This document shows positions 912 through 14,955 of a DNA stretch of 64,000 nt, piece after piece. Both the position numbers and the translations under genes were made by a program. Position 1 is the stretch's first letter. Each line of letters starts with the position of its first letter. The notes under the pieces are model-generated. The model did no database searches, had not been told where the DNA came from, and worked only from the letters and a program-made list of their open reading frames with translations. The DNA is from Clostridia bacterium (GTDB lineage Bacteria > Bacillota > Clostridia > Oscillospirales > SIG627): contig JAFXEX010000028.1 in NCBI GenBank assembly GCA_017520825.1, positions 1 to 64,000 on the forward strand, read 5' to 3'.

Positions 912-1268
912 TTACGGCTTGATAGTTGCAAGTCCGTCGAGAAGCGGTCTTACATAAGCAAGGAATGCACCAATGCCGTTGATAATAGCCCAAGCAATCC
1001 AAATACGCTTGAGCCAGTCAACACTCTGGTCTACCTTTTGCTGATTGTTTGAAAGCTTCATACCTACAACACATACGGTAGTCATAAGAGCCGCAAGGAC
1101 GGTACTTATTCCTGCAATATGATTGTAGACGTCAACGATAATTCTGTCGGCAACTACCCACATATCATCTACGGCAAATACATTTATCGCAAACAGCGGT
1201 ACAAGTGCCACAATGAACGGTAGTGTCTGACAGCAAAACTTCATTATTTTGTTTTTCATATAAAGCAT
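912..1268 (-). CDS. Small two-helix membrane protein of a conjugative element (DUF3852/VirB2-like)
   Basis: This 118-residue protein has an N-terminal signal or membrane segment (residues about 10-30), a short loop, then two hydrophobic helices (about 45-65 and 85-105). Size and topology resemble the small Maff2/DUF3852/TrbC-like proteins found next to CnaB surface-protein genes in Tn1549/CTn-type elements. That family call rests on my recollection of architecture, not on a motif. The ATG at 1268 was chosen because AAGGA lies just upstream; a second ATG sits at 1259. It could be a pilin-like or mating-channel subunit. Confidence 0.6.
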   Translation of the reverse strand: MLYMKNKIMKFCCQTLPFIVALVPLFAINVFAVDDMWVVADRIIVDVYNHIAGISTVLAALMTTVCVVGMKLSNNQQKVDQSVDWLKRIWIAWAIINGIGAFLAYVRPLLDGLATIKP

Positions 1269-1290
1269 CGCATCCTTTCTAAAAATGGTT

Positions 1291-1316
1291 GTGGGCTGCC
1301 TTTTATGACAGCCCAC
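1291..1316 (-). terminator. Intercistronic hairpin between adhesin and small membrane protein
   Basis: GTGGGCTGTC and GGCAGCCCAC form a 10-bp stem with a 6-nt loop, followed after 5 nt by ATTTTTAG. It lies right after the adhesin stop and before the next ribosome site, so it may act as a partial terminator or 3'-end stabiliser. Confidence 0.6.
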
Positions 1317-1328
1317 GGGAAATGGAGT

Positions 1329-4300
1329 TTAATAGCCGGTTTTCGGCATTTCGATGTAAGTGTAACTATATACCTTTGTAACGAAACGGGAGATTGTGGT
1401 TATCCACTGACCGTTGTATACACCGCCGACATCCGCAGTATTTACAAAGCTGGAGCCGTTTGCAAGTCCTTTAACGGAACGTGCGTAAAGGTAAGGAGTT
1501 TCAACCTGTGCAAAGCCTGCTCTGACACTTCCGAATACATACATAATTTCTGTGATGTACTCGTTATCCGCAATACCGAGAGCGATGCTTGATACATCAA
1601 TTACATAGTTCTTGCTTGTGGAAAGATTGTCATTGATTGTGCGGTATTCGCCGTTAGAAAGGTTTGTAAGATACACTATCTTGTAGGATAGGTTCTGATT
1701 GAATGTGCCTGTCACTATCTTTTCGGCACGAATAGCCGATGGAAGTGTATCACGGAAATAGAAGCTGTCAAGAGATACGCTTGAAGTGTTTGCAATATTC
1801 TTGAAGCTGTAAACAATGGGGTTATTGGGCATTACTTCGTTGTAGCCATATTTGGTTACCGATACTCCTACAGATACCGACTTATTAAGTACCTCAAATG
1901 TCATAATCTGACCGTTAAACTCAAGGTGTGCTGTCATAAGAGTTCCATTGGGTGTGTAGTAAGTAGGAGCTACCGTCTCACGCATTGTATAAAGACCGAG
2001 AGGAAGAGGCTTTGATGCGGCTCTGCCGTTCTTGTCTGTTTTAATGGTGTCAACAATGTTTCCTGCCTTGTCGTAAATTTCAAATACAGCACCTTCAAGA
2101 AGTGAGCCTGCGGGAAGTCCGTTGATGGGGTTATCGTCTGCTGATTTCTTTACCACCTGAATCTGTGCCTGAATAGGTGTGTTGTACCAAGTGATTGATG
2201 AAGTATGACCGTACTCAACATAGAATGTCTTAACCTCGTTATCAAGTACATAGCCGTTAGGCACTGCAATCTCACGGATGTAATACTTACCGTCTTCAAA
2301 CTCGTTGTTATCGGTATATACATATCCGTTCTGATCGGAAACGTACTGTGCAAGAGGTCTGCCGTAGCGGTCTGAGATAAGGAATGTTACACCGCTTATA
2401 CCTTTACCTGTTGTTGAATCAACCTTATGAATAAGGAAGGAGGAATTCTTGCGATTGGTAATTGTAACACGGGTTATTTCTCCGTCAGTTACTTCAATGT
2501 CGTGAGGTTCTGCATCAAGAATGTAGTCGTCTGCCGCTTTGGTTTCAACGATCGTGTACCATCCGTTAGGTAAATCATCAATATTGATAACACCGCTTGC
2601 ATTTGTGGTGTATGTACCGATGCGTTTACCATTCATATACTCAACTTCAAACTTAACGCCCTTTATAGGCTGTCTTGTTTCTTCGTCAAGCTTTGTAATT
2701 CTGATACCGCCAAGAGCTTCATTAAGGAAGGTAAGCTCGTGAGTCTGTCCTGACTTTACCTTAACTGTCTGAGGTGCACCGTCAAGAGTATATCCCTCGG
2801 GAGCAGTAACCTCTGTTACAACGTAAGTATCGGGAGCAAGACCTGTAAGGTGGATGATACCGTTTCTGTTTGTGGTATATCTGCCGTTTGCGTTACCAAC
2901 TACTGTTCCTTCGCTGTTTGTAACCTTGAATACAGCACCGTAAAGTGGTTCACCTGTAGCCTTGTCAAGCTTTGTGATAATAAGCCCGCCTTCGGGAGAG
3001 TTGTAGAATGTGAGGTTATGAATCTTACCCGATACTACATTTATTGTCTGAGGCTCATCGCTGATAGCATAACCTGCAGGGGCTTCAACTTCAGTAATAA
3101 CATAAGTTCCGGGAGTAAGTCCGTTTACTTTGATATTACCGTAAATATCTGTTGTATATCTGCCGTTTGAATTTCCTACAACAGCACCCGTACTGTCGGT
3201 GATTTCAAATACCGCTCCGTAAAGAGGCTCTTCGGTTTCCTTATCAAGCTTAGTAATGATAAGTCCGCTGCTTGGCTTGTTGTAGAAGGTAAGAGTTTGT
3301 GTGTTGTCTGCATCAATCTTTACAGTCTTTGAAACAGTGTCAATTACATATCCATCGGGAGCTTTTGTTTCGGTAACAACTACCGTTGTGCCTGCTTCGA
3401 TATTTGTAATGTGTATCTGTCCCAATTCGTCTGTTGTATAGATGCCGTTAGAGGATACTGCACCATTTTCTGTGGGAATAAATTTGCCGTCAGATGTAGT
3501 TACGGTAAACTCTGCACCTGCAAGGGGCTGTTTTGTAATACTGTCAAGCTTACGGATGATAAGTCCGCCGTCCTTTTCATTTTCAAAAGTAACAGTGATT
3601 ACATCCTGTTCCTTTCCTGTGATATACACAGTTTCGGGAGCATCGCTGATAATATAACCATCGGGAGCCTTTGTTTCCTCGATCACATATGTGCCTGCTT
3701 CAAGTCTTGTTATAACGATTGTGCCGTTTGCAGAAGTTGTATACTCTCCGATAACAGTACCGCCGCTACCGCTTGTTCCGGAGAGGTATCTAACTTGGAA
3801 CTTTGCACCCTGAAGTACCTTTCCTGTGTCGGCGTCAACCTTCTTGATAACAAGTCCCGAAAGTGGTACGTTCTCAAAGGTGATTTCCTTATCTTCGCCG
3901 CCCTTGATGTAGATTTCCTGTGCTTCATTTGAAAGCACATATCCGTCGGGAGCTGAAGTTTCGGTTATCTTATACCAGCCGTCGTTGAGATTGTACATCT
4001 TAAACTGTCCGTTCTCATCGGTGGTAAATGTGCCGAGATGATTTACTTCACCTGTAAAGGTGTTGTTTGAAGCATAAACAACGCTGAACTTCGCATTTTT
4101 AAGGGGATCCTTTGTAATGCTGTCAATCTTGTTTACTGTAAGGGACGGTTTCTGATAGTTCTCAAAACGCACAACAGAGGTACGGTTTGGAACAAGGGTT
4201 ACAAGCTTGGGTTCGGAGTCGAGCAGATAATCGTTAGGAACGCTCTTTTCTATTACCTCGTAAATACCGGGGTTAAGGTGAGAAAGAAGTGCTTCACCGT

Positions 4301-7300
4301 TCTCGTCTGTAACTACCGTGTTCTCAGTACTGCCGTCTGCAAGACGAACAAGGAAGCCAACACCTGCGATTGGTTTACCTGTTTCAGCATCGGTCTTTAC
4401 GATCTTAAGACTTGGCTTTTCTTCGTTGAGAACAACTACCTGAGATTCCTTGCCCGCGAAAAGCTCTACGTGGTATTCCGTTTCATTAAGGACATAGTTT
4501 GTAGGAGCTTTTATCTCTTTTACGGAGTATACGCCGGGTTCAAGATTGTCGATTACGATATTACCGTCAATATCTGTAATTCTGTCAAGGTAGTTACTTC
4601 CGTCTTCGATTTTAGCGATTCTGAAAGTAGCGCCGGACAGATATTTATCGTTGTACTTATCGTATTTGATGACTCTGATGGACGGTTTCTTGGTATTGGT
4701 GAATACAAAGGTTGCATATTCGTTGCCTTCAACCTTGACTGTACGTTCTGCATTGTCAATGAGGTATCCTTCAGGTGCTTTTGTTTCGGTAACTGTATAT
4801 GTACCTTCGTCAAGTCTGTCAAGCTTGATTTCGCCGTTCTGGTCTGTGGTGTATTCCTTTTCAAAGGTGCCACCGACCTCGGTAAACTTGAATGTAGCGT
4901 TTACAAGAGGCTTCATTGTCTGTAAGTCAATCTTCACAAGACGCATATACGGCTTCTGGTCGTTAAGGAATACAAGAACCGCTGTGTCAAGGCTATCCTC
5001 CTTAACCTCAATAGACTGAGGTGTGGAGTTTACTATATGGTCATCGTCAGTTGCAATTTCCTTGACTGTGTACGTGCCTGTTTTAAGATCAAACAGTTCA
5101 ATGATACCGTTCTCATTTGTTGTGTATGTGCCTACAAGTGTGGTATCAAGATACACTTCAAAGGAAGTACCTGCCATAAATTCACCTGTGAGGCTGTCGT
5201 ACTTCTTGATAGTAAGGCTTGGCTTTCTTGAGTTCTCGATTGTAAGCTCGTTTGTTTTGCCTGCCGATGCTGTAAGGTGATAAAGTTCACCGTTTAACTG
5301 ATAGCCCTCGGGAGCTGTTATTTCCTGAACGGTATATACACCTTCGTCAATTTCAGAAAGTGTGATTTCACCGTTTTTATCAGTAGTTTTCTCCCATACA
5401 TCGTTACCCGAAAGATTTACAATACGAACTACAGCACCCTCAAGTTTTTCGCCTGTGTGCTTATCAATCTTTGTAATCTTGATGCTGGGCTTTACTGTAT
5501 TTGTAAATACAAAGGTTGCGGATTCGTTGCCTTTTACTTCAACAATTCTTGAAGAATTATCTGCAATATATCCGTCAGGAGCCTTTGTTTCCTTTACAAC
5601 ATAAGTACCAACTTCAAGTTCATTAAGAGAAATTTCGCCGTTTCTGTCAGTTGTAAATTCCTTTGTGAAGCTGCCGTCTGTTTTCTTAACTTCAAAGACT
5701 GCATCGGAAAGGGGTTCAAGAGTTGTACTGTCAAGCTTTACAAGTCTTATATACGGCTTCTGATCGTTTAAGAAAACAAGCATTGCGGTATCACCGCTGT
5801 TTTCATCAATCTCTATCTGCTGGGGAGTGGAGTTTACGATGTGCTCGTTATCAACCGATATTTCCTTTACAAGATATGTGCCTGTTTTAAGGTCACGGAG
5901 ATTGATTTCACCATTTATGTTTGTAGTGTAAGTACCAACAAGTCTTGCATCACGGTATACTTCAAATACGGCACCCGAAAGAGGCTCATTTGTCTTACTG
6001 TCAAGCTTTATGATTGTAAGGCTGGGTTTAATAGTGTTTTCAACGGTAAGTGTACTGTCTTTGCCCTCGAAAAGCTCTACGTGATAAAGGGTATCATTAA
6101 GCTGATAGCCTTCGGGAGCAGAGAGTTCCTGTACGGTGTAGATGCCTTCGTCAAGTCCGTCAATTTCAATAACACCGTTTCTGTCAGTAACTCTGTCATA
6201 GTAGCGTGTGCTGTCGCCAACCTTTGCTATACGGAAGGCAGCACCGTAAAGGGTATTGCCGTTATCCGAGTCAACTTTAGTAATTTTAAGTGTCGGTTTT
6301 CTGTAGTTCTTAAATACAAGTTGAACGTTTCCGTCCTCTGTCGCTTCAAAAACCTTTACTTCGGTATTTCTTACATAACCTTCGGGAGCTGATATTTCGG
6401 AAACCGAATATACACCGGGATTAAGATCGGAAAGTGTGATTTCACCGTCTCTGTCTGTTGTAAGCTCGTTAAGGTAAGTGACATTCACGCCTTCAATCTT
6501 AAAGGTTGCTCCATAGAGTTCATCACCTGTGTCAGCATCTATCTTCTTTATGCTGATGCCGGGCTTTGTGGGGTTAAAGAATGTAAGTGTTGCAGTCTTA
6601 CCGGGCTCAAGCTCAATAGACTGTGGTGCATCCTGAAGCACGTATCCGCTTGCTGTTCTTGTTTCTTTTACGGTGTATGTGCCGGGCTCAAGGTCTGTAA
6701 GCTCCACAAGTCCGTTTGCATCGGTTGTGTAGTTGCCGATAAGCTTTGTGTCCTTATATACTGCAAATCTTGTATTCTTTATGGGCTTTAAGGTCTGTGT
6801 GTCAAGCTTCTCAATTATGAGGGTAGGCTTCTTTGAGTTTGTAAGTACAAGAATAGGATCGTTTTCCACTGCGGGATCGTAAGGGTTGATATATATTCCG
6901 TGTCTTTCTGTATCAAGAATATATCCTGCAGGAGCTGCGACCTCTTCAACCTCATAGTAGCCTTCGGAAAGCTCGGAAACACAGGCATAACCTGCGGAAT
7001 TGGTTGTTACCGTTGTTACAAGTCTGCCGTCTCTGTAAACCTTAAAAGATACATCTTCAAGAGGAATGTTTGTGTCTTTGTCTTTCTTAATGAGTACAAA
7101 CGAGGGAGTTCTTACATTTTCAAAGGTAAGGGTAATATCGCTCTTGCCGTCCCATTTGAAAGTCTGTACATCATTACTCTTTTCATATCCTACGGGTGCT
7201 TTAAGCTCGTATGCTTTGTATGTACCGTAAGGAAGTGCATCGCCCTGAAGCTCAATACAGCCGTTATGACCTGTGTAAAGGTCGGTCTTGTAACTGCCGT

Positions 7301-8804
7301 CTGTCTGCTCGATTCTGAAAGAAGCACCGAGAAGCGGATTTCCGTTCTGTGCATCAACCTTGCGTATGCGAAGTATTCTTTCACTGAGATTCTTAACGCT
7401 GACAGTAGTTGTAGTGCCTTCAAGAACATTGACTGTTACATCTTCTGCCTTGATATATCCTGCGGGAGCCTGTGTTTCGGAAAGTGTATAGGAAATTGTA
7501 GGATCAAGATATTCCCATACAATCTGACCTGTGCTGTCGCTTGTTCCTTCATATGTTTTGCCGTTGGAGCCTGTCAGCTTGAATATTGCACCCTGTAAGG
7601 GATTTCCCATACCGTCAACCTTGTTTACAACAAGTCTGCCGTAAGGAGATGTAACGGTGTCCCATTTCATTGTACCTGTGCAGGACATAGGAGCATACAT
7701 CGGGTCTGCAATTATAAAGCTCTGTTCTGTGTCTGTCTGATTATTGGCAAAGTATATGTTGAACTGTGTTATTGTTGCATTTGCGTTGAAGGTGATGTTT
7801 CCGCTTTTGGGAGTGTTTCTTACTGGAATACATACCTTAAAATCGCCTGCATACTCCGAGCCGTTCTCATTCATATTGGTGAGAGTGTGGTCGGGAGTAG
7901 GAACTGTCCAATAAGTCTTACCCGAAGCAGTCCATGACACAAGCTGTTCGTTATCAAGATTTGTAACTATTGTGCCTGTGGGAGCGTTTGCGAGGTGAAG
8001 ATTTATTGAGTAGTTGTTCTTGTAGGTCGATGTTGCAGAAGAAGCAACAAAAGTGCGTGTGTAGTATTCAACACCGCCGATTGTTTCCTTTTCAATGCCG
8101 TACATACCGTTTTGTTCAGCACCGATAAGACCGTTAGCGTCTTCAATATTAAGAACGTTGCCTGCTTCGGTTCTTCCAAGTCTTATATGCATACCTGCAT
8201 TTAAGGGCTTAGTCCAGAAGGAAGCATTGTAAAGGATAATTTTAAGTGCTTCATATGCTCTTATTGCAGAAGGATCATCGGTAGGAACAAGAAGTGTATC
8301 ACGTCCGCTGTCCCATTGAGTTCCTTCGATTCTTAATTGTCCGAGAGTAGTCCATACTGCCGCCTGAGTTGCCGCTACGTACTCTTCACGGGTAAGATTT
8401 GCGATAAGGGGATTATCTGCTTTGTTAATGGAGATAAAGTCCTCAAGGCTTCTCTGGGGATAACCGTTGGCAAATGCACCTATCGTCTGAGGGGTTGTGG
8501 TGTATTTACCCGTAATGGTTATCTTCTTTGTTTCAGAGGGCTTTGCAAGTCCCCAGTTGATACAGTATGCAGGTCCTTGTATACCTGTATCACTTGTATA
8601 TGTCCACGACTGTCCCTGAAGCTTTGTGCCGCCAACAGTTTCGAGGATATAGTGGGTTTCGTTAAGTTTAATTGTTACTGTCTGTGCTTTTCCGTCACTT
8701 AATGTTTCTGCACTTACGGGCATTATGGGTATGACGGAGAGGAGAGTAATAAGGGCAAGCAACAGAGCGATTATCTGCTTGCCTGAACTTTTTGCTGTAG
8801 ACAT
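1329..8804 (-). CDS. Giant thioester-domain, SpaA/CnaB-repeat surface adhesin
   Basis: This 2491-residue protein has a signal peptide (residues 1-32, ending PVSA). The N-terminal domain (about 35-385) carries the two hallmarks of a thioester domain: Cys81 in AYCINWG and Gln147 in ATQAAVW. Such domains form an internal Cys-Gln thioester that can bond covalently to host amines. I count 21 SpaA/CnaB-type repeats of about 88-100 residues (about 388-2305). Each starts with a V.K.D-type strand containing the isopeptide Lys and has a later E-T/E-I/E-L-x-APxGY motif containing the likely catalytic Glu. A distinct domain (about 2306-2485) follows, and the protein ends in MPKTGY with no hydrophobic tail. 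The ATG follows AGGAGG. A sortase is encoded two genes upstream. Expected at the cell surface; ligand unknown. Confidence 0.92.
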   Translation of the reverse strand: MSTAKSSGKQIIALLLALITLLSVIPIMPVSAETLSDGKAQTVTIKLNETHYILETVGGTKLQGQSWTYTSDTGIQGPAYCINWGLAKPSETKKITITGKYTTTPQTIGAFANGYPQRSLEDFISINKADNPLIANLTREEYVAATQAAVWTTLGQLRIEGTQWDSGRDTLLVPTDDPSAIRAYEALKIILYNASFWTKPLNAGMHIRLGRTEAGNVLNIEDANGLIGAEQNGMYGIEKETIGGVEYYTRTFVASSATSTYKNNYSINLHLANAPTGTIVTNLDNEQLVSWTASGKTYWTVPTPDHTLTNMNENGSEYAGDFKVCIPVRNTPKSGNITFNANATITQFNIYFANNQTDTEQSFIIADPMYAPMSCTGTMKWDTVTSPYGRLVVNKVDGMGNPLQGAIFKLTGSNGKTYEGTSDSTGQIVWEYLDPTISYTLSETQAPAGYIKAEDVTVNVLEGTTTTVSVKNLSERILRIRKVDAQNGNPLLGASFRIEQTDGSYKTDLYTGHNGCIELQGDALPYGTYKAYELKAPVGYEKSNDVQTFKWDGKSDITLTFENVRTPSFVLIKKDKDTNIPLEDVSFKVYRDGRLVTTVTTNSAGYACVSELSEGYYEVEEVAAPAGYILDTERHGIYINPYDPAVENDPILVLTNSKKPTLIIEKLDTQTLKPIKNTRFAVYKDTKLIGNYTTDANGLVELTDLEPGTYTVKETRTASGYVLQDAPQSIELEPGKTATLTFFNPTKPGISIKKIDADTGDELYGATFKIEGVNVTYLNELTTDRDGEITLSDLNPGVYSVSEISAPEGYVRNTEVKVFEATEDGNVQLVFKNYRKPTLKITKVDSDNGNTLYGAAFRIAKVGDSTRYYDRVTDRNGVIEIDGLDEGIYTVQELSAPEGYQLNDTLYHVELFEGKDSTLTVENTIKPSLTIIKLDSKTNEPLSGAVFEVYRDARLVGTYTTNINGEINLRDLKTGTYLVKEISVDNEHIVNSTPQQIEIDENSGDTAMLVFLNDQKPYIRLVKLDSTTLEPLSDAVFEVKKTDGSFTKEFTTDRNGEISLNELEVGTYVVKETKAPDGYIADNSSRIVEVKGNESATFVFTNTVKPSIKITKIDKHTGEKLEGAVVRIVNLSGNDVWEKTTDKNGEITLSEIDEGVYTVQEITAPEGYQLNGELYHLTASAGKTNELTIENSRKPSLTIKKYDSLTGEFMAGTSFEVYLDTTLVGTYTTNENGIIELFDLKTGTYTVKEIATDDDHIVNSTPQSIEVKEDSLDTAVLVFLNDQKPYMRLVKIDLQTMKPLVNATFKFTEVGGTFEKEYTTDQNGEIKLDRLDEGTYTVTETKAPEGYLIDNAERTVKVEGNEYATFVFTNTKKPSIRVIKYDKYNDKYLSGATFRIAKIEDGSNYLDRITDIDGNIVIDNLEPGVYSVKEIKAPTNYVLNETEYHVELFAGKESQVVVLNEEKPSLKIVKTDAETGKPIAGVGFLVRLADGSTENTVVTDENGEALLSHLNPGIYEVIEKSVPNDYLLDSEPKLVTLVPNRTSVVRFENYQKPSLTVNKIDSITKDPLKNAKFSVVYASNNTFTGEVNHLGTFTTDENGQFKMYNLNDGWYKITETSAPDGYVLSNEAQEIYIKGGEDKEITFENVPLSGLVIKKVDADTGKVLQGAKFQVRYLSGTSGSGGTVIGEYTTSANGTIVITRLEAGTYVIEETKAPDGYIISDAPETVYITGKEQDVITVTFENEKDGGLIIRKLDSITKQPLAGAEFTVTTSDGKFIPTENGAVSSNGIYTTDELGQIHITNIEAGTTVVVTETKAPDGYVIDTVSKTVKIDADNTQTLTFYNKPSSGLIITKLDKETEEPLYGAVFEITDSTGAVVGNSNGRYTTDIYGNIKVNGLTPGTYVITEVEAPAGYAISDEPQTINVVSGKIHNLTFYNSPEGGLIITKLDKATGEPLYGAVFKVTNSEGTVVGNANGRYTTNRNGIIHLTGLAPDTYVVTEVTAPEGYTLDGAPQTVKVKSGQTHELTFLNEALGGIRITKLDEETRQPIKGVKFEVEYMNGKRIGTYTTNASGVINIDDLPNGWYTIVETKAADDYILDAEPHDIEVTDGEITRVTITNRKNSSFLIHKVDSTTGKGISGVTFLISDRYGRPLAQYVSDQNGYVYTDNNEFEDGKYYIREIAVPNGYVLDNEVKTFYVEYGHTSSITWYNTPIQAQIQVVKKSADDNPINGLPAGSLLEGAVFEIYDKAGNIVDTIKTDKNGRAASKPLPLGLYTMRETVAPTYYTPNGTLMTAHLEFNGQIMTFEVLNKSVSVGVSVTKYGYNEVMPNNPIVYSFKNIANTSSVSLDSFYFRDTLPSAIRAEKIVTGTFNQNLSYKIVYLTNLSNGEYRTINDNLSTSKNYVIDVSSIALGIADNEYITEIMYVFGSVRAGFAQVETPYLYARSVKGLANGSSFVNTADVGGVYNGQWITTISRFVTKVYSYTYIEMPKTGY

Positions 8805-8876: not shown

Positions 8877-9971
8877 TTATTCTGCCGTACTTCCGGGTAC
8901 AAGCAGTTCTTTGGCAAATTCCGTTTTGTCTTTCGTTGTGTCGATTCTTGGGTAACTGTTTGTAAAGAGCGATTCATCGGTTCGTGCTACATCATAATAG
9001 CTTACGTCGATTATCTGCCATCTGCCGTCAATATACGCCTCATTCCAAGCGTGAGTTGCATCTTTAATGGTTACACAGGGAATATCGGCTCGATGACAGA
9101 GATAGATAAAAGCATTTGCATAAGTTCCGCAGATGCCGTTGACGGTAGTGGATGATGTGAAAACATCATTTATTCCTGCCACATTTTCATCCTTGTAAAC
9201 GATGCGGTCGGCGATATATGTTGCTATCGCCTTAACCTTTTCTTTTTCTGAAAGGGCTGCAAGACTATTTACGAATTCATCCGTTGCCGTGTTCGCACTT
9301 TCATACTTGGGGTTGACCTGTACCTTTAAGATACGGTAACCGGGGTACTCATACAGATTCTTGACAGTGGGTTCTGCACCGAAGCTGTAGGTGTAATATC
9401 CCGAAAGAACATTTGCTACCGATTTCATTGCAGTATCGGTCTTGCCGGGAGTAGTGAAAGTGAACTCGGTATCTACATAGTGAGCATAGCTGTATGTGGG
9501 GTTATATCCGTCAGCATTGTTGCCGTCTATTATAACCTTTGTATCCGCTATCGTCTGCCGCATAGTGTTGTATGCTTCCTTTGTGTAGATGTCGCTGAAT
9601 ATACTTTGTTTTGCATTTGCCGAAAAATCCTTTTTTGAAGACGATGTGCCGTCTATAAATATATCGGTGATTACAATAGGTGTATCATCGGGGATTTCTT
9701 TGATTTCTTCTTTATTTGGAACCTCCATATGCACACTGTTTGTTTCCTCAATATATTCGATATCAGCGCCAAACAAGGCGGCTGCATCACGAAGCTTTAC
9801 GTAGTTATTGCCATTTATGTTATATGCGAAAAGCTCCGTTTGTTCTCCGTTCAAGAAGAATATTTGTGATGTTATCTGTGCAAGAACGCCGGAATTTGCC
9901 ATTACTGCCGTTCCGCTGAAAAATACCGCACCGCAGAGTAAACCTAATAAGAAATATATGTACTTCCTCAT
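8877..9971 (-). CDS. Exported transglutaminase-like protein with a copper-amine-oxidase-type N-domain
   Basis: This 364-residue protein has a signal peptide (about 1-25). Next is a short domain (about 38-85, NGEQTELFAYNINGNNYVKL) of the copper-amine-oxidase N-domain type often used as a wall-binding stalk. The C-terminal transglutaminase/protease-like fold (about 240-345) has the full catalytic triad: Cys281 (NGICGTYA), His307 (DATHAWNEAY) and Asp322 (QIIDVSYYD). It could cross-link or cleave surface proteins. The gene lies between the sortase and the giant adhesin, which suggests a role in processing or attaching the adhesin; that is inference. The ATG at 9971 follows AAAGGAG. Confidence 0.85.
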   Translation of the reverse strand: MRKYIYFLLGLLCGAVFFSGTAVMANSGVLAQITSQIFFLNGEQTELFAYNINGNNYVKLRDAAALFGADIEYIEETNSVHMEVPNKEEIKEIPDDTPIVITDIFIDGTSSSKKDFSANAKQSIFSDIYTKEAYNTMRQTIADTKVIIDGNNADGYNPTYSYAHYVDTEFTFTTPGKTDTAMKSVANVLSGYYTYSFGAEPTVKNLYEYPGYRILKVQVNPKYESANTATDEFVNSLAALSEKEKVKAIATYIADRIVYKDENVAGINDVFTSSTTVNGICGTYANAFIYLCHRADIPCVTIKDATHAWNEAYIDGRWQIIDVSYYDVARTDESLFTNSYPRIDTTKDKTEFAKELLVPGSTAE

Positions 9972-10022: not shown

Positions 10023-10877
10023 TTAATCTACCTGCTCGGCTTTAACGCACCATCTGTAATAGTCCGACTGGTTCTTGACGCAGGTGATAAGGGTGATGAT
10101 ATTGTCACTTGTGTTCTGAAGGTCAGAGGTATCGTCAACCGAGATCTTCTCGATGCTGTACACCTCATACTTTCGTGTACCGAGCTTTGTTGTGAGCTTT
10201 ATTTTTGCTCCAAGGTCAAGCTCTTGAATATCCGAGAAGTATGCACCTGTGCCTCTGTTGTGAGAAGCAAGACATACATTACCGTCCCAGATGGAAGTTT
10301 CTTTGAAATGTCCTACGCCTTTGGAAAGTACCGAATTTGTCGTACCCTCATAAACCTTTACAGAAAGGTCAATGTCAGGAATAGACAGCTTTGCGATATA
10401 TCCGCCTGTGTAGTACATATCATCGTCAACTTCCGTGAATGCATCGTATGTGTAGTAGTCCTCGTAAATATCCGTATCAATGTTACCCGGGATAATAGTC
10501 ACACCACTATTATTTGTTACGGATGAGTTCGGGACTGTACTAGTAACCGTCACCATAGGCTGTTCTGTTATACCGCTAACCGATACGGGAGCCTGCGGTG
10601 TTTCGGTGTAGTAGGATGCAAGATTTGGAGTGAGTGGTTCGCCACTTCCGAGAAGGTTACTTGTATGACTTCCGAAAGCGGGAGGGATAAGGGCACTGTT
10701 CTTACTTATATCAACCGCTGTTCGGTTGATATTGTTACCAACTGTTACAACATCAACCGATGTCGGTGTTCCAAACAGTGCTTGTGTTGGCGGTGCTACC
10801 GTGTAATCCGCAGCAAATGCGGGGATTGCAAGCACGCACACAAGTCCGAGAGAGAGAAATAAAACTATCTTTTTCAT
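10023..10877 (-). CDS. Sortase
   Basis: This 284-residue protein has an N-terminal signal or anchor (1-22), a long Ser/Thr/Pro-rich spacer (about 25-145) and a sortase beta-barrel. The barrel shows the family signature: IPDIDLSVKVYEG, VGHF, His206 in LASHNRGTG, Cys266 in LITC, and Arg275 in YYRW. The LITC form and short barrel look closest to class D/A rather than class B; class is uncertain. It would cleave a sorting motif and form an amide bond, and the obvious substrate is the MPKTGY-ending adhesin nearby. I chose the ATG at 10877, which follows AAAGGGA and gives a proper signal peptide. Confidence 0.9.
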   Translation of the reverse strand: MKKIVLFLSLGLVCVLAIPAFAADYTVAPPTQALFGTPTSVDVVTVGNNINRTAVDISKNSALIPPAFGSHTSNLLGSGEPLTPNLASYYTETPQAPVSVSGITEQPMVTVTSTVPNSSVTNNSGVTIIPGNIDTDIYEDYYTYDAFTEVDDDMYYTGGYIAKLSIPDIDLSVKVYEGTTNSVLSKGVGHFKETSIWDGNVCLASHNRGTGAYFSDIQELDLGAKIKLTTKLGTRKYEVYSIEKISVDDTSDLQNTSDNIITLITCVKNQSDYYRWCVKAEQVD

Positions 10878-10878
10878 C

Positions 10879-11784
10879 TTAGTATCCCTTTCTCTTTTTA
10901 CGGATAAGTCTGTAAATAGCATATCCGCCTGCACCAAGTGCTGCCGCACCTGCGACTGAACCTGCTACAATACCTGCGGTCTTTGCTTTCTTTTCTGCAG
11001 AAGAATCCTTTTTGTCGTTGGTTTTGTCTATGTCAATCATAGGCTCGTTTGTCTCCTTGTTTTCCTTAAATACCGCCGTATACGTAACGGTATCGTTTAT
11101 GACTTTCGTAACAGTTCCTTTGTAATCGGCACTTGCGGTATATCCGTTTACATAGGTCTTTGTTTCTGTTCCTGTGTAGATCGCATTCGCAGTGTATCTT
11201 ATTGCAACGTCTGTACCGCTTATGGTTTCATCTGCTGCCGTTACCCATTCGATATTGGCAAGGGTAAGAGTTGTGCCGTCCTTGTCAATAGTCTTGGGTA
11301 CAAGAGAGGTATCTGCCGATGCAAGATTGGGGTAGCTTCTTTCTTCCGTTACCGTGAACTTACGGCTGGAATATCCTGCAGGGGTAAGCTCAAGGGTAGA
11401 ATGATCGAATGCGAGAACTCCGATGTAGCCGTCCTCAGTGGTGATCTCCAATGTTGGCGCAAAGAGTGCCACAACGACTTCTGCATCATTTGTTGCTGTG
11501 TGATAGCTTACATTTTCAATGTGTTCTTTTGTATCTTCCTCGGAGTTGTCGTGTACCTTTGTTTCCACATACTCATATTCAACCTCGTTTTCGGTATATG
11601 ATTCTGAGGGAATAAGGCTTGCATCGCTGTCTTTGGGAAGAACATAGATTTTTTCGACGACCGTATAATCATCGACTGTGCTTTGAACGATTTCCTGCGG
11701 AGTGAGGGTATCGTCTGCTAAAGCAGAAATTGCGAACGTGCTTAATGCCAGCAGTAATACTGCAAGGCGCTTGAATGATTTCAT
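10879..11784 (-). CDS. Exported, C-terminally membrane-anchored protein of unknown function
   Basis: The 301-residue protein begins with a signal peptide (1-23, SALA). An acidic Thr-rich extracellular region follows (about 24-255), with predicted beta strands and a repeated Thr-Tyr-Thr pattern. A Lys-rich linker leads to a single membrane helix (about 271-292, AGIVAGSVAGAAALGAGG) and a basic tail RLIRKKRKGY. I do not recognise a named domain. Only 1 nt separates its stop from the sortase ATG, so the two are cotranscribed. A surface accessory role in the element's sortase/adhesin system is plausible but inferred. Confidence 0.75.
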   Translation of the reverse strand: MKSFKRLAVLLLALSTFAISALADDTLTPQEIVQSTVDDYTVVEKIYVLPKDSDASLIPSESYTENEVEYEYVETKVHDNSEEDTKEHIENVSYHTATNDAEVVVALFAPTLEITTEDGYIGVLAFDHSTLELTPAGYSSRKFTVTEERSYPNLASADTSLVPKTIDKDGTTLTLANIEWVTAADETISGTDVAIRYTANAIYTGTETKTYVNGYTASADYKGTVTKVINDTVTYTAVFKENKETNEPMIDIDKTNDKKDSSAEKKAKTAGIVAGSVAGAAALGAGGYAIYRLIRKKRKGY

Positions 11785-11857: not shown

Positions 11858-12865
11858 TCATTCTTCTTTAACGGCGAAAAGCTCCGCGATGCGGTTGTTT
11901 ACAACCTTATCATTTCTGCCGTAAATATCTATCCTTGCTCGGCGTAGCTCGGACTCTCTCGGGACCTTATCGAGAAGCACTATATAGCTGTCGTCAATCT
12001 CACGGCTCCAAGCCTTGTCGAGAAGGAAATATTTCATTTTGCCGATGTGCCACGTGTCCGAAAAGCACATAAGAATCTTGATGTCACACTCACGGAACAG
12101 CTTCATTTTCTCTTCGTCATAGCAGTCATTATACGAAAGAAGCTTACCCTTGGATGATACGGTGTAGGGGGTGCCGAAGTCATAAACGACTGCAGCACTT
12201 GTCTTTTTTATCCTCGCAATGTCAATATCCGAATGAACAATGTATGTAACCTTTTTAGATTTGGCAAAGCGTAAGCTTCCTGTGCCGGAGAAGTCTATCG
12301 CTTTTACATTGCAATTTTGCGATGTTGCTATAAACTCCGATATGTTTATGACTGTGTTTGTCACCCCGCTGCCGTGAGTAAGTCCGAGAACACCAATTGT
12401 TACGCAGGGCGGTTTGTACACCTCGTGTTCTATGACCTCGTGGGGTTCTTCAAAAACATTTACTTCGTAATCGTATATGTAGCCTTTCTTGATAACGTCG
12501 GCGAAGTATTCCTCATCAAGTCTCGAACCTTCATAAATAATGTCGGTTATACCGTAAACATTTTTATATTCGGATATCTGGTCTTCGATATACTGATTAC
12601 GGTACCCGGGAAAGACAATGACGATTCGTATGTTAGGTTCTATCTGCCGTATTCGTGCAAACAGTTTTTTACGATTGGTATTTAGCAGGAGAGTATCTGC
12701 AATTACAAGCACGTCTACGTTGGTATCAAGCGCATCAAAGCGGTCCATAAAATCGTCGTTGTTATCAAAGTGCTCATCAACTATGCGTATATTGTTCCTT
12801 GCAAAGATGATTGCGAGATCATCCGAATGCTTGGTCTTGCCAAGCCACAGTACCACGTTTATCAT
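11858..12865 (-). CDS. CpaE/TadZ-like protein with a degenerate Walker A motif
   Basis: This 335-residue protein has an N-terminal receiver-like half (about 1-115; predicted alternating strands and helices, FPGYRNQYIEDQ). It is joined to a MinD/ParA-like half starting near residue 153 with GVLGLTHGSGVTNTVINISE. The expected deviant Walker A (KGGxGKT) reads LTHGSGVT here: both lysines are missing, so ATP hydrolysis is doubtful. Pseudo-receiver plus atypical P-loop is the CpaE/TadZ layout, used there to localise pilus machinery. The ATG follows AGGAGGTGA and lies inside the end of the upstream gene. Confidence 0.65.
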   Translation of the reverse strand: MINVVLWLGKTKHSDDLAIIFARNNIRIVDEHFDNNDDFMDRFDALDTNVDVLVIADTLLLNTNRKKLFARIRQIEPNIRIVIVFPGYRNQYIEDQISEYKNVYGITDIIYEGSRLDEEYFADVIKKGYIYDYEVNVFEEPHEVIEHEVYKPPCVTIGVLGLTHGSGVTNTVINISEFIATSQNCNVKAIDFSGTGSLRFAKSKKVTYIVHSDIDIARIKKTSAAVVYDFGTPYTVSSKGKLLSYNDCYDEEKMKLFRECDIKILMCFSDTWHIGKMKYFLLDKAWSREIDDSYIVLLDKVPRESELRRARIDIYGRNDKVVNNRIAELFAVKEE

Positions 12866-13250
12866 ACAGTTTCACCTCCTTTTTATGTTCCTCCGTAATC
12901 CGTCCGTTTCGCTCGATGATGCTTTCAAGTATTCTGTATGCTGTTTCAAGTGCTTTGCCTGTATCACGCTTATCCTTTTTGTAAAAAGCATAGAGCAGAA
13001 TTACCTCGCCGTGATGCTCGTAGAACATTACTCGAACCATTGTCTTTCCTGACTTTAATCTCAGTTCATACATCTGTCGGTATTTTTCTGTAGAGAAATG
13101 CTTTACATAGGGCTCGGTGAACGGATTACGTTCATCGCTTATGTATGCAAGCTGAAATTCAAGCTTACGTTTGAGCTTGTCGTCAATATCCCTTAAAAAT
13201 TCCTCCACGGGATATTTGTCACCGTCTTTATATGTGTATATTCTTCTCAT
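12819..13250 (-). CDS. HigB/Gp49-like (RelE-superfamily) protein
   Basis: The 143-residue protein has the phage-derived Gp49-like/HigB pattern: YPVEEFLRDI near the N-terminus, then YELRLKSGKTMVRVMFYEH and the core ILLYAFYKKDKRD (TP replaced). That is the usual RelE-type toxin fold. No helix-turn-helix antitoxin follows; the downstream gene instead overlaps it by 47 nt and encodes the CpaE-like protein. The C-terminal extension (about 105-143) is longer than in typical toxins. It may be a domesticated family member working with the element's partition genes. The ATG follows AGGAGG. Confidence 0.75.
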   Translation of the reverse strand: MRRIYTYKDGDKYPVEEFLRDIDDKLKRKLEFQLAYISDERNPFTEPYVKHFSTEKYRQMYELRLKSGKTMVRVMFYEHHGEVILLYAFYKKDKRDTGKALETAYRILESIIERNGRITEEHKKEVKLYDKRGTVAWQDQAFG

Positions 13251-13265
13251 TAAATCCTCCTGTTT

Positions 13266-14180
13266 TTATTTGTAATCTTCTAAAAATTTAAGTATTGCAT
13301 CACGCATATCAGAAAGGCTTGTGAATTTACTGCGGTACTTTTTTATTTCCGACTTTGAAAAGGATATTGTGTCCTTTGGTCTGTCTTGGTTTTCCAAAAG
13401 ATCTATGATGTCATCCCGTGATAACTCACCGCTGTGCTGTTTTATGAGCTTGGCTTTCTTCAAATCAAGCTTGTATGCTTCCTTTTCATATACAAGCTCA
13501 TATACATCTGTCTGTTCAATTTCTGTTAGATAAGAGAGCTCTGCGGCAACTTTGATGTTCAGCTTTTTATTATCAAGTGCATCTATAAGTTGTGTGATGA
13601 GATGGTTGAGTCTGAGATAAAGATATACATTTGACTTTGAAGTGTTAAACTCTTTTTCCATGATCTTGTCTATCTTTTCATCAGAATTCCACCCGGTGGA
13701 ATTTTCATCGGAAGTACGTTTTCGTCCTTTCAAATCCGTGTATCTTATGAGGTAGGAGCGAGCAATTTCGGATGGGAGTTGTGTGTCTCTCTGTTGAAAG
13801 TTGGTCGCTATCATTATGCGATTGGCAAGCTCATCGTCAGCCTGAATCACAAGAACCTTTATCTCTTTATCACCGTTGTACTCACAAGCACGTGTACGGC
13901 GATGACCTGCGAGAATCTCGTATATACCATATTCGATTTGACGAACTATGACGGGCTGCATAAGTCCATTTTCTCTGATACTGTCTGCAAGTGCACGAAA
14001 TTTATCGTCCTCGATCACCTTGAAAGGATGATTTTCTTTCTCACGAAGCTGCGAAATAGGGAGTACCGTCATTCTCGCATTTACTGACAAACCGAACATT
14101 TCCGTAAGACCGCTTACCGCAGATATTCCGCTATTTTCCGTCTTTCTTGAAAAAGCCGAAAAAACATCATTGTTTGCCAT
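13266..14180 (-). CDS. parB: ParB-family partition protein
   Basis: This 304-residue protein has a ParB/Spo0J nuclease-like N-domain with LREKENHPFKVIEDD, SIRENGLMQPVIVR and EILAGHRRTRACE (about 45-115). A helix-turn-helix region follows (about 125-200) and then a Lys-rich C-terminus. It would bind parS-like sites and act with the ParA encoded just upstream; the reading frames overlap by 14 nt. The ATG at 14180 was chosen because GGAG precedes it. ParB-ParA pairs of this type sit in Tn1549/CTn-type elements and support stable maintenance of the excised circle. Confidence 0.92.
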   Translation of the reverse strand: MANNDVFSAFSRKTENSGISAVSGLTEMFGLSVNARMTVLPISQLREKENHPFKVIEDDKFRALADSIRENGLMQPVIVRQIEYGIYEILAGHRRTRACEYNGDKEIKVLVIQADDELANRIMIATNFQQRDTQLPSEIARSYLIRYTDLKGRKRTSDENSTGWNSDEKIDKIMEKEFNTSKSNVYLYLRLNHLITQLIDALDNKKLNIKVAAELSYLTEIEQTDVYELVYEKEAYKLDLKKAKLIKQHSGELSRDDIIDLLENQDRPKDTISFSKSEIKKYRSKFTSLSDMRDAILKFLEDYK

Positions 14181-14955
14181 TTGCCACCAGCTCCTTTGCA
14201 ATATTCATATATGCCACAGACACGGGATGCTTTGGTGCAAGCTCGATAAGACTTTTTCCATACAGCGGTTGTTCTGCCGCTTTGATGGAATATGGAATTG
14301 TATCATTAAATACGTTGATCTCCGCTCCGTATATCTCAAACAGTTTTGCTTCAATACCTTGACTGAGCTTGGTTCTTTGCTGATACATCGTAAGGAACAC
14401 GCCTGCAATCTTCAAGTCGGGGTTTAGCTTTTTCTTCACCATTTCAACAGTACCGAGCATTACCTTGAGACTTTCAAAGCTGAGATAGTGAGCTTCAACG
14501 GGGATAAGCACGCTGTTTGATGCGGTAAGTGCATTTGTTACCATAAGCCCGAGATTAGGTGGGCAGTCAATAACGATGTAGTCATAGTCCTCACGAACCG
14601 TGTCAACAATTGCCTTGAGAACACATTCACGGTTGAAAGCGTTCATAAGGCGGTAGTCGATACCTGTAAGCAAAAAGTTGGACGGTAGAATACCTACGAT
14701 ACCAACGTTATATATACATTCACGCACCCGCTGTTTTGTTACCTCACCCTCGATTGCTTCTGTCATAAGAGTAACAATGGTGTTTGGATTCTCATCATAG
14801 TTCTTACCGAGTGCCTTGGCAATGTTGCCTTGGCAGTCGGTGTCAATTATAAGTACCTTCTTACCAAGCTTTGCGAAAGAATACGCGATGTTGATGCTGG
14901 AAACGGTCTTTCCGACTCCGCCTTTCAGGTTGATTAAGCATATAACTTCACTCAT
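14167..14955 (-). CDS. parA: ParA/Soj-family partition ATPase
   Basis: The 262-residue P-loop ATPase has a deviant Walker A (LKGGVGKTVSSIN, residues about 9-21), a switch I/Walker B region (IDTDCQGN near 38; YIVIDCPPNLG near 126) and the ParA alpha/beta fold throughout. It partners with the overlapping parB downstream. The ATG follows a perfect AGGAGG. About 500 bp of iteron-like, terminator-rich leader lies upstream, and two terminators just before the gene imply that it is attenuated or has its own weak promoter. Confidence 0.95.
   Translation of the reverse strand: MSEVICLINLKGGVGKTVSSINIAYSFAKLGKKVLIIDTDCQGNIAKALGKNYDENPNTIVTLMTEAIEGEVTKQRVRECIYNVGIVGILPSNFLLTGIDYRLMNAFNRECVLKAIVDTVREDYDYIVIDCPPNLGLMVTNALTASNSVLIPVEAHYLSFESLKVMLGTVEMVKKKLNPDLKIAGVFLTMYQQRTKLSQGIEAKLFEIYGAEINVFNDTIPYSIKAAEQPLYGKSLIELAPKHPVSVAYMNIAKELVANGKQ

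Follow-up and report, generated by a model that had tools for sequence, protein, structure and literature searches.

A giant thioester adhesin that ends at its sorting motif, and the clade of sortases encoded beside such proteins

Introduction

In the textbook scheme of sorting, the tail that follows the LPxTG motif is required for keeping the protein near sortase. The true recognition motif of the enzyme has been described as LPX1TGX2, in which X2 is another residue or an amide; a motif that ends in a free glycine carboxylate is no substrate (PMC9126251). Tail-free LPETG peptides added from outside enter cell walls in a SrtA-dependent manner, so catalysis as such needs no membrane tail (PMC3929722). 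In C. difficile, a normal substrate stripped of its whole sorting signal goes to the supernatant, and a tail-less protein would thus be lost unless quickly captured (PMC5569036). Tail-less sortase substrates were not found described in the literature searched, which was open-access only and hence is weak evidence of absence.

Thioester adhesins aiding conjugation are already known. The TIE adhesin of pLS20 (gene 34) is needed for efficient conjugation in liquid and its cysteine is essential; sortase is dispensable, and the mode of attachment is an open question (PMC8092201). The window analyzed here, a stretch of 64,000 nucleotides from a Clostridia bacterium (contig JAFXEX010000028.1), encodes a giant thioester adhesin that stops at a sorting motif. 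A first-pass annotation had proposed that it may serve mating or host attachment; the mating idea is less new than was supposed there, as pLS20 shows. To that annotation the present analysis adds a secreted-looking sortase, an adjoining membrane-anchored partner, and a wide distribution of the tail-less ending.

The giant adhesin of the window

The adhesin and its main parts are the following.

1329..8804 (-), giant secreted adhesin, 2491 aa (ORF and Pfam domain matches)
1905..7637 (-), limits approximate, stalk of 21 SpaA/prealbumin-like domains (Pfam)
1353..1901 (-), adhesin C-terminal domain, about 185 aa, preceding the motif (conserved in relatives)
1329..1349 (-), MPKTGY and stop, extreme C-terminus, residues 2486-2491 (kept in 83/84 relatives)

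The protein is made by a signal peptide, a class II-like thioester domain, 21 SpaA/CnaB stalk domains, the C-terminal domain and a tail-less sorting motif. The Sec signal peptide is a hydrophobic N-terminus ending in PVSA (rule-based call). Pfam places the thioester domain at residues 78-166 (E 1.2e-7), and its 21 SpaA stretches bear out the SpaA/CnaB stalk claimed in the first-pass annotation. The adhesin ends at IEMPKTGY, followed by a TAA stop. Of the canonical cell wall sorting signal, it features the LPxTG-type motif and the Sec signal peptide, and lacks both the hydrophobic segment past the motif and the basic C-terminal tail. Apart from the signal peptide, no hydrophobic segment of the membrane-tail type was found in a scan of the whole protein, nor was a tail found downstream of the stop in three frames up to the next gene; the tail-less MPKTGY ending noticed earlier is therefore confirmed. 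In the whole genome that includes the window, [LMIFV]PxTG[YF]-stop occurs once, at the end of the adhesin, and a control pattern 0 times.

Endings of the relatives

Relatives were first searched with the last 220 aa of the adhesin. Neighbouring genomes gave 11 homologous ends, each of them stopping at [LM]P[RK]TG[YF], and the C-terminal domain is 44-58% identical to that of the earliest-found relatives. A scan of 84,980 species genomes was then based on patterns inside the C-terminal domain, with the motif itself excluded. It yielded 80 loci, plus 4 from viral contigs, for a total of 84 relatives, including cultured Flavonifractor plautii ATCC 29863, Oscillibacter sp. 1-3 and Pseudoflavonifractor capillosus. 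No match to the C-terminal domain was found in plasmid or phage records.

[LMI]P-x-TG-[YF]-stop is the exact end of 83 of the 84 relatives; the sole exception, L116, may be frameshifted. The endings are LPRTGY (53), LPKTGY (17), LPTTGY (5), MPRTGY (4) and four singletons. More distant relatives end in LPRTGC, LPKTGC, LPKTGF, LPKTGM, LPQTGF or LPRSGW. In every tail-less end, exactly one residue follows the glycine, its identity being variable. As 83 of 84 homologues stop at the same place, and the end is the only one of its kind in the genome, the MPKTGY ending is not due to chance. Judged by its endings, the family retains exactly the published chemical minimum, LPX1TGX2.

The tail might be missing because of truncation, frameshift or readthrough, being lost or encoded elsewhere. 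The sorting signals described in the literature examined all have a tail, and at 9 loci the following gene lies in frame, with a hydrophobic start, as such an artefact would have it. Against it, the ends are identical in all relatives but one, and are followed by TAA (47) or TGA (36); being mixed, the stop codons also make recoding unlikely. The 9 readthrough stretches resemble the start of the next gene, which is VirD4-like, and no frameshift-encoded tail was found across the 83 homologous ends. This explanation is refuted for the family and almost certainly wrong here. Homologues with a standard membrane tail, which the first-pass annotation had named as the sign of a truncated copy, were not encountered. 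The tail-less ending is a conserved design, not a truncation.

Some relatives have unusual structures. One (L162, G227:C24) carries the C-terminal domain twice in tandem, with the LPKTGM end on the last copy only. Reverse-transcriptase ORFs adjoin or sit within giant adhesin genes at three loci (L020:10458-12374, L024:2577-4385, L026:6857-8752), and one of them features type II intron maturase and HNH domains. The adhesins at these loci look interrupted, and group II introns may be invaders targeting giant adhesin genes.

The thioester domain

Three codons of the N-terminal domain are relevant to the thioester bond.

8562..8564 (-), Cys81, YC-phi-zeta motif, invariant thioester cysteine (alignment)
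8364..8366 (-), Gln147, TQAAVW structural motif, not bond-forming (alignment, PMC4450167)
7722..7724 (-), Gln361, EQSFII, Q-zeta-phi-phi, invariant (alignment, PMC6194298)

Cys81 had been paired with Gln147 in the first-pass annotation. This pairing is not upheld. In thioester domains the bond is formed neither by the Gln nor by the Trp of TQxxPhiW; the Gln that pairs with the Cys is located in a late beta strand (PMC4450167, PMC6194298). Gln147, which resides in that structural motif, has become Lys in 5 of the 9 divergent relatives; Cys81 and Gln361 are invariant across ten divergent members. Given its invariance, the variability of Gln147 and the late-strand position of the partner, Gln361 is most likely the thioester glutamine. 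Gln347 was also considered and dropped, being not conserved in divergent relatives. Gln361 and the first stalk lysine, Lys395, are 34 residues apart, compared to 31 in BaTIE.

An AlphaFold2 model of residues 30-410 (pLDDT 83.6) has class II thioester domains as best matches (6fwy, Z 17.9, and 6fwv, Z 17.3, by VIA), class I domains scoring at most 12.1. According to the model, the N-terminal domain of the adhesin adopts the class II TED fold, with a beta-sandwich insert.

The sortase and its clade

Three genes lie upstream of the adhesin, and loci that extend far enough upstream nearly always show the order TMtail, sortase, variable secreted protein, adhesin.

8877..9971 (-), secreted transglutaminase-like protein, encoded between the sortase and adhesin genes (domain match; the slot varies among loci)
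10023..10877 (-), tail-less-clade sortase (likely start codon, the ATG at 10877)
10879..11784 (-), "TMtail", partner of the sortase (signal peptide, ectodomain, membrane helix at the C-terminus followed by a basic end)

The gene that separates sortase and adhesin differs among loci, encoding a transglutaminase-like, CAP-domain or copper-amine-oxidase-N-like secreted protein.

The sortase, the only one in the genome, matches Pfam PF04203 (E 1.2e-24) and has His206, Cys266 and Arg275 as catalytic residues. It falls below the cut-offs of NCBIfam classes C (68/160 bits), D (61/165) and E (68/160). Among plasmid-borne sortases the nearest, from Listeria and Enterococcus, reach only some 37% identity across half of the query. 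The window enzyme has a cleavable-looking signal peptide (...IPAFA|ADY) and no other membrane segment. An AxA-type site after a hydrophobic segment was found in 50 of 50 element-borne sortases tested (rule-based, not SignalP), and no second membrane segment in those examined for it. By these two features, the sortase of the conjugative-element branch itself looks secreted.

Clade sortases were also searched with the sortase alignment alone in 391 genomes of the same class, and the surroundings of the matches were then read. Several families of small-genome Clostridia feature a chromosomal two-gene operon, made by a sortase and a thioester-SpaA protein of 405-574 aa, which ends in LPxTG plus M, F or Y. 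A tail-less protein adjoins 12 of the 15 clade sortases retrieved in this way. The controls, 40 loci of that class whose sortases are unrelated, were chosen from the stronger Pfam matches, and in 33 of them a sortase was detected by the sortase model used; with near-copies inflating the counts, tail-less substrates were found in 0/33 and ordinary tailed substrates in 15/33 (12/15 vs 0/33, Fisher p 6.5e-9). In a tree of 88 catalytic domains, every sortase with a tail-less partner falls in one clade (support 100/99). Both kinds of substrates coexist at locus L172, each adjoining its own sortase type; the second sortase, beside the normal tailed protein, falls outside the tail-less clade. No tail-less protein is encoded in the DNA examined around the clade sortases of L164, L169 and L177, L169 being a short contig. 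Genome G247 has its sortase and its adhesin on separate contigs.

These comparisons lend good support to the tail-less ending, to its constant length and to its link with a single sortase clade. As the first-pass annotation had suggested, a free C-terminus is probably what the element's own sortase recognises.

A sortase-like protein could also act as a non-covalent clamp, which recognises and holds the C-terminus with no processing. The His/Cys/Arg triad is invariant in 33/33 aligned sortases adjoining tail-less proteins, and the single residue past the glycine suits the requirement of cleavage, not simple binding. Both points make the clamp very improbable.

The TMtail partner

The ectodomain of TMtail measures about 220 aa, is beta-rich and conserved, features a near-invariant Lys164, and was modelled with pLDDT mostly above 90. 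TMtail matches no PHROG or NCBIfam family, and no PDB entry by sequence or Foldseek; its best VIA score (Z 5.5) reflects a common arrangement and is the basis for no fold claim. In 14 loci the TMtail gene and the sortase gene share 4 nt, and the two are translationally coupled. In one genome a natural fusion is found, a single 474-aa ORF joining TMtail and the sortase domain (L168:11726-13150(-)). The overlap and the fusion suggest a role for TMtail in retaining the secreted sortase at the membrane. The association of the partner with secreted sortases is imperfect, as at L163 TMtail is present yet the sortase is anchored. The hypothesis that TMtail is a split sorting-signal tail provided in trans was dropped, since it has no LPxTG motif, and a role as sortase partner fits better.

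The tight coupling of TMtail and sortase, along with the one fusion, may also be taken to mean that the sortase links the free C-terminus to a protein rather than to peptidoglycan, for example to a lysine of TMtail or of a component of the type IV secretion apparatus, tethering the adhesin to the membrane or the channel. Homologues of type IV secretion genes lie after the adhesin in 56 of the 72 loci having 3 kb downstream, which would fit. No pilin-like lysine motif was identified, Lys164 of TMtail being only a candidate, and in the chromosomal two-gene operons tail-less substrates occur without TMtail. A protein acceptor is accordingly considered unlikely.

Genomic context

In L016/L017 the module lies between a relaxase gene, accompanied by a NikA/MobC-like protein, and VirD4, VirB4 and NlpC/P60 genes. 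In the window, the adhesin gene is followed by this one.

912..1316 (-), small membrane protein with several helices, placed as VirB2 would be (weak; in 4 loci, homologues lie after the adhesin gene)

The element of the window is itself broken off by the contig start, and relaxase and VirD4 are absent from the MAG, which is 84% complete. In the first-pass annotation the adhesin was taken to be carried by a conjugative element. Relatives do reside in conjugative elements with relaxase, VirD4, VirB4 and NlpC/P60 genes, which show the type IV link; in the window, where the element is cut, the adhesin may be carried in the same way. A RelB/YafQ-type toxin-antitoxin pair (170-774) resides beside the broken edge at the contig end. 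ParA, ParB and a Gp49/HigB-like protein are encoded upstream of the module (12819-14955), and ParA and ParB precede the module also in G056:C15.

A possible route to the surface

The adhesin would be exported via its signal peptide and, having no stop-transfer tail, would leave the translocon fully. Its free C-terminal LPxTG plus one residue would then be bound by the neighbouring sortase, which would cut the Thr-Gly bond and set free a dipeptide, for instance Gly-Tyr. For the conjugative-element branch, the enzyme would be a secreted sortase docked at the membrane by TMtail; in other branches, a sortase with its own N-terminal anchor. From the acyl-enzyme the adhesin would go to an acceptor on the surface of the donor, a peptidoglycan amine being the likeliest. 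At the far end of the long isopeptide stalk, the thioester tip could then bond to the recipient or host surface. A sortase pathway acting on fully secreted, membrane-untethered substrates, with docking by TMtail, is considered fairly probable.

In the conjugative-element branch both sortase and substrate look secreted, and exogenous LPETG peptides are taken up by cells having SrtA (PMC3929722). The two proteins might hence act in the medium or in the mating junction, anchoring the adhesin in trans onto the wall of a neighbour cell. The conserved membrane helix of TMtail and the one sortase fusion point to local action instead, and anchoring in trans seems improbable.

The local pathway, with docking by TMtail, has a broader formulation: a distinct clade of sortases would process a free C-terminal LPxTG-X on secreted proteins, with the secreted sortase docked by a membrane partner, and would serve both conjugative elements and chromosomal thioester adhesins across Clostridia. 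The balance tips slightly in favour of this wider statement.

Comparison with known systems

The tail-less family suggests an unrecognised route for fixing secreted proteins to cell surfaces. If the reading is correct, the tail would not be needed where capture is achieved in another way, and a monophyletic group of sortases would work on substrates of the chemical minimum. Surface display would be explained for many proteins that annotation pipelines label as secreted, and natural sortases suited to C-terminal ligation would be at hand.

The sortase of the window shares with those of classes D, E and C a sortase domain with His-Cys-Arg, and matches the corresponding NCBIfam models. It differs in scoring 61-68 bits against cut-offs of 160-165, in belonging to a separate clade, and in the tail-less partners of that clade. 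BaTIE and EfmTIE86 (PDB 6fwv, 6fwy) resemble the adhesin in the thioester fold followed by isopeptide domains. In contrast to the adhesin, they end in sorting signals of the conventional type, membrane segment included (PMC8092201, PMC6194298). PrgB of pCF10 is likewise an adhesin of a conjugative element displayed for mating, but is made by other domains and is sortase-anchored to the wall via a C-proximal LPxTG (PMC8092201). The TIE adhesin of pLS20 is, as the adhesin of the window, a secreted protein with a class II thioester domain and a Cna stalk, carried by a conjugative element and devoid of a membrane tail. It differs in having no LPxTG motif and no sortase gene, and measures only 778 aa. 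The ending described here may bear on how tail-less conjugation adhesins, such as pLS20 TIE, stay on the donor.
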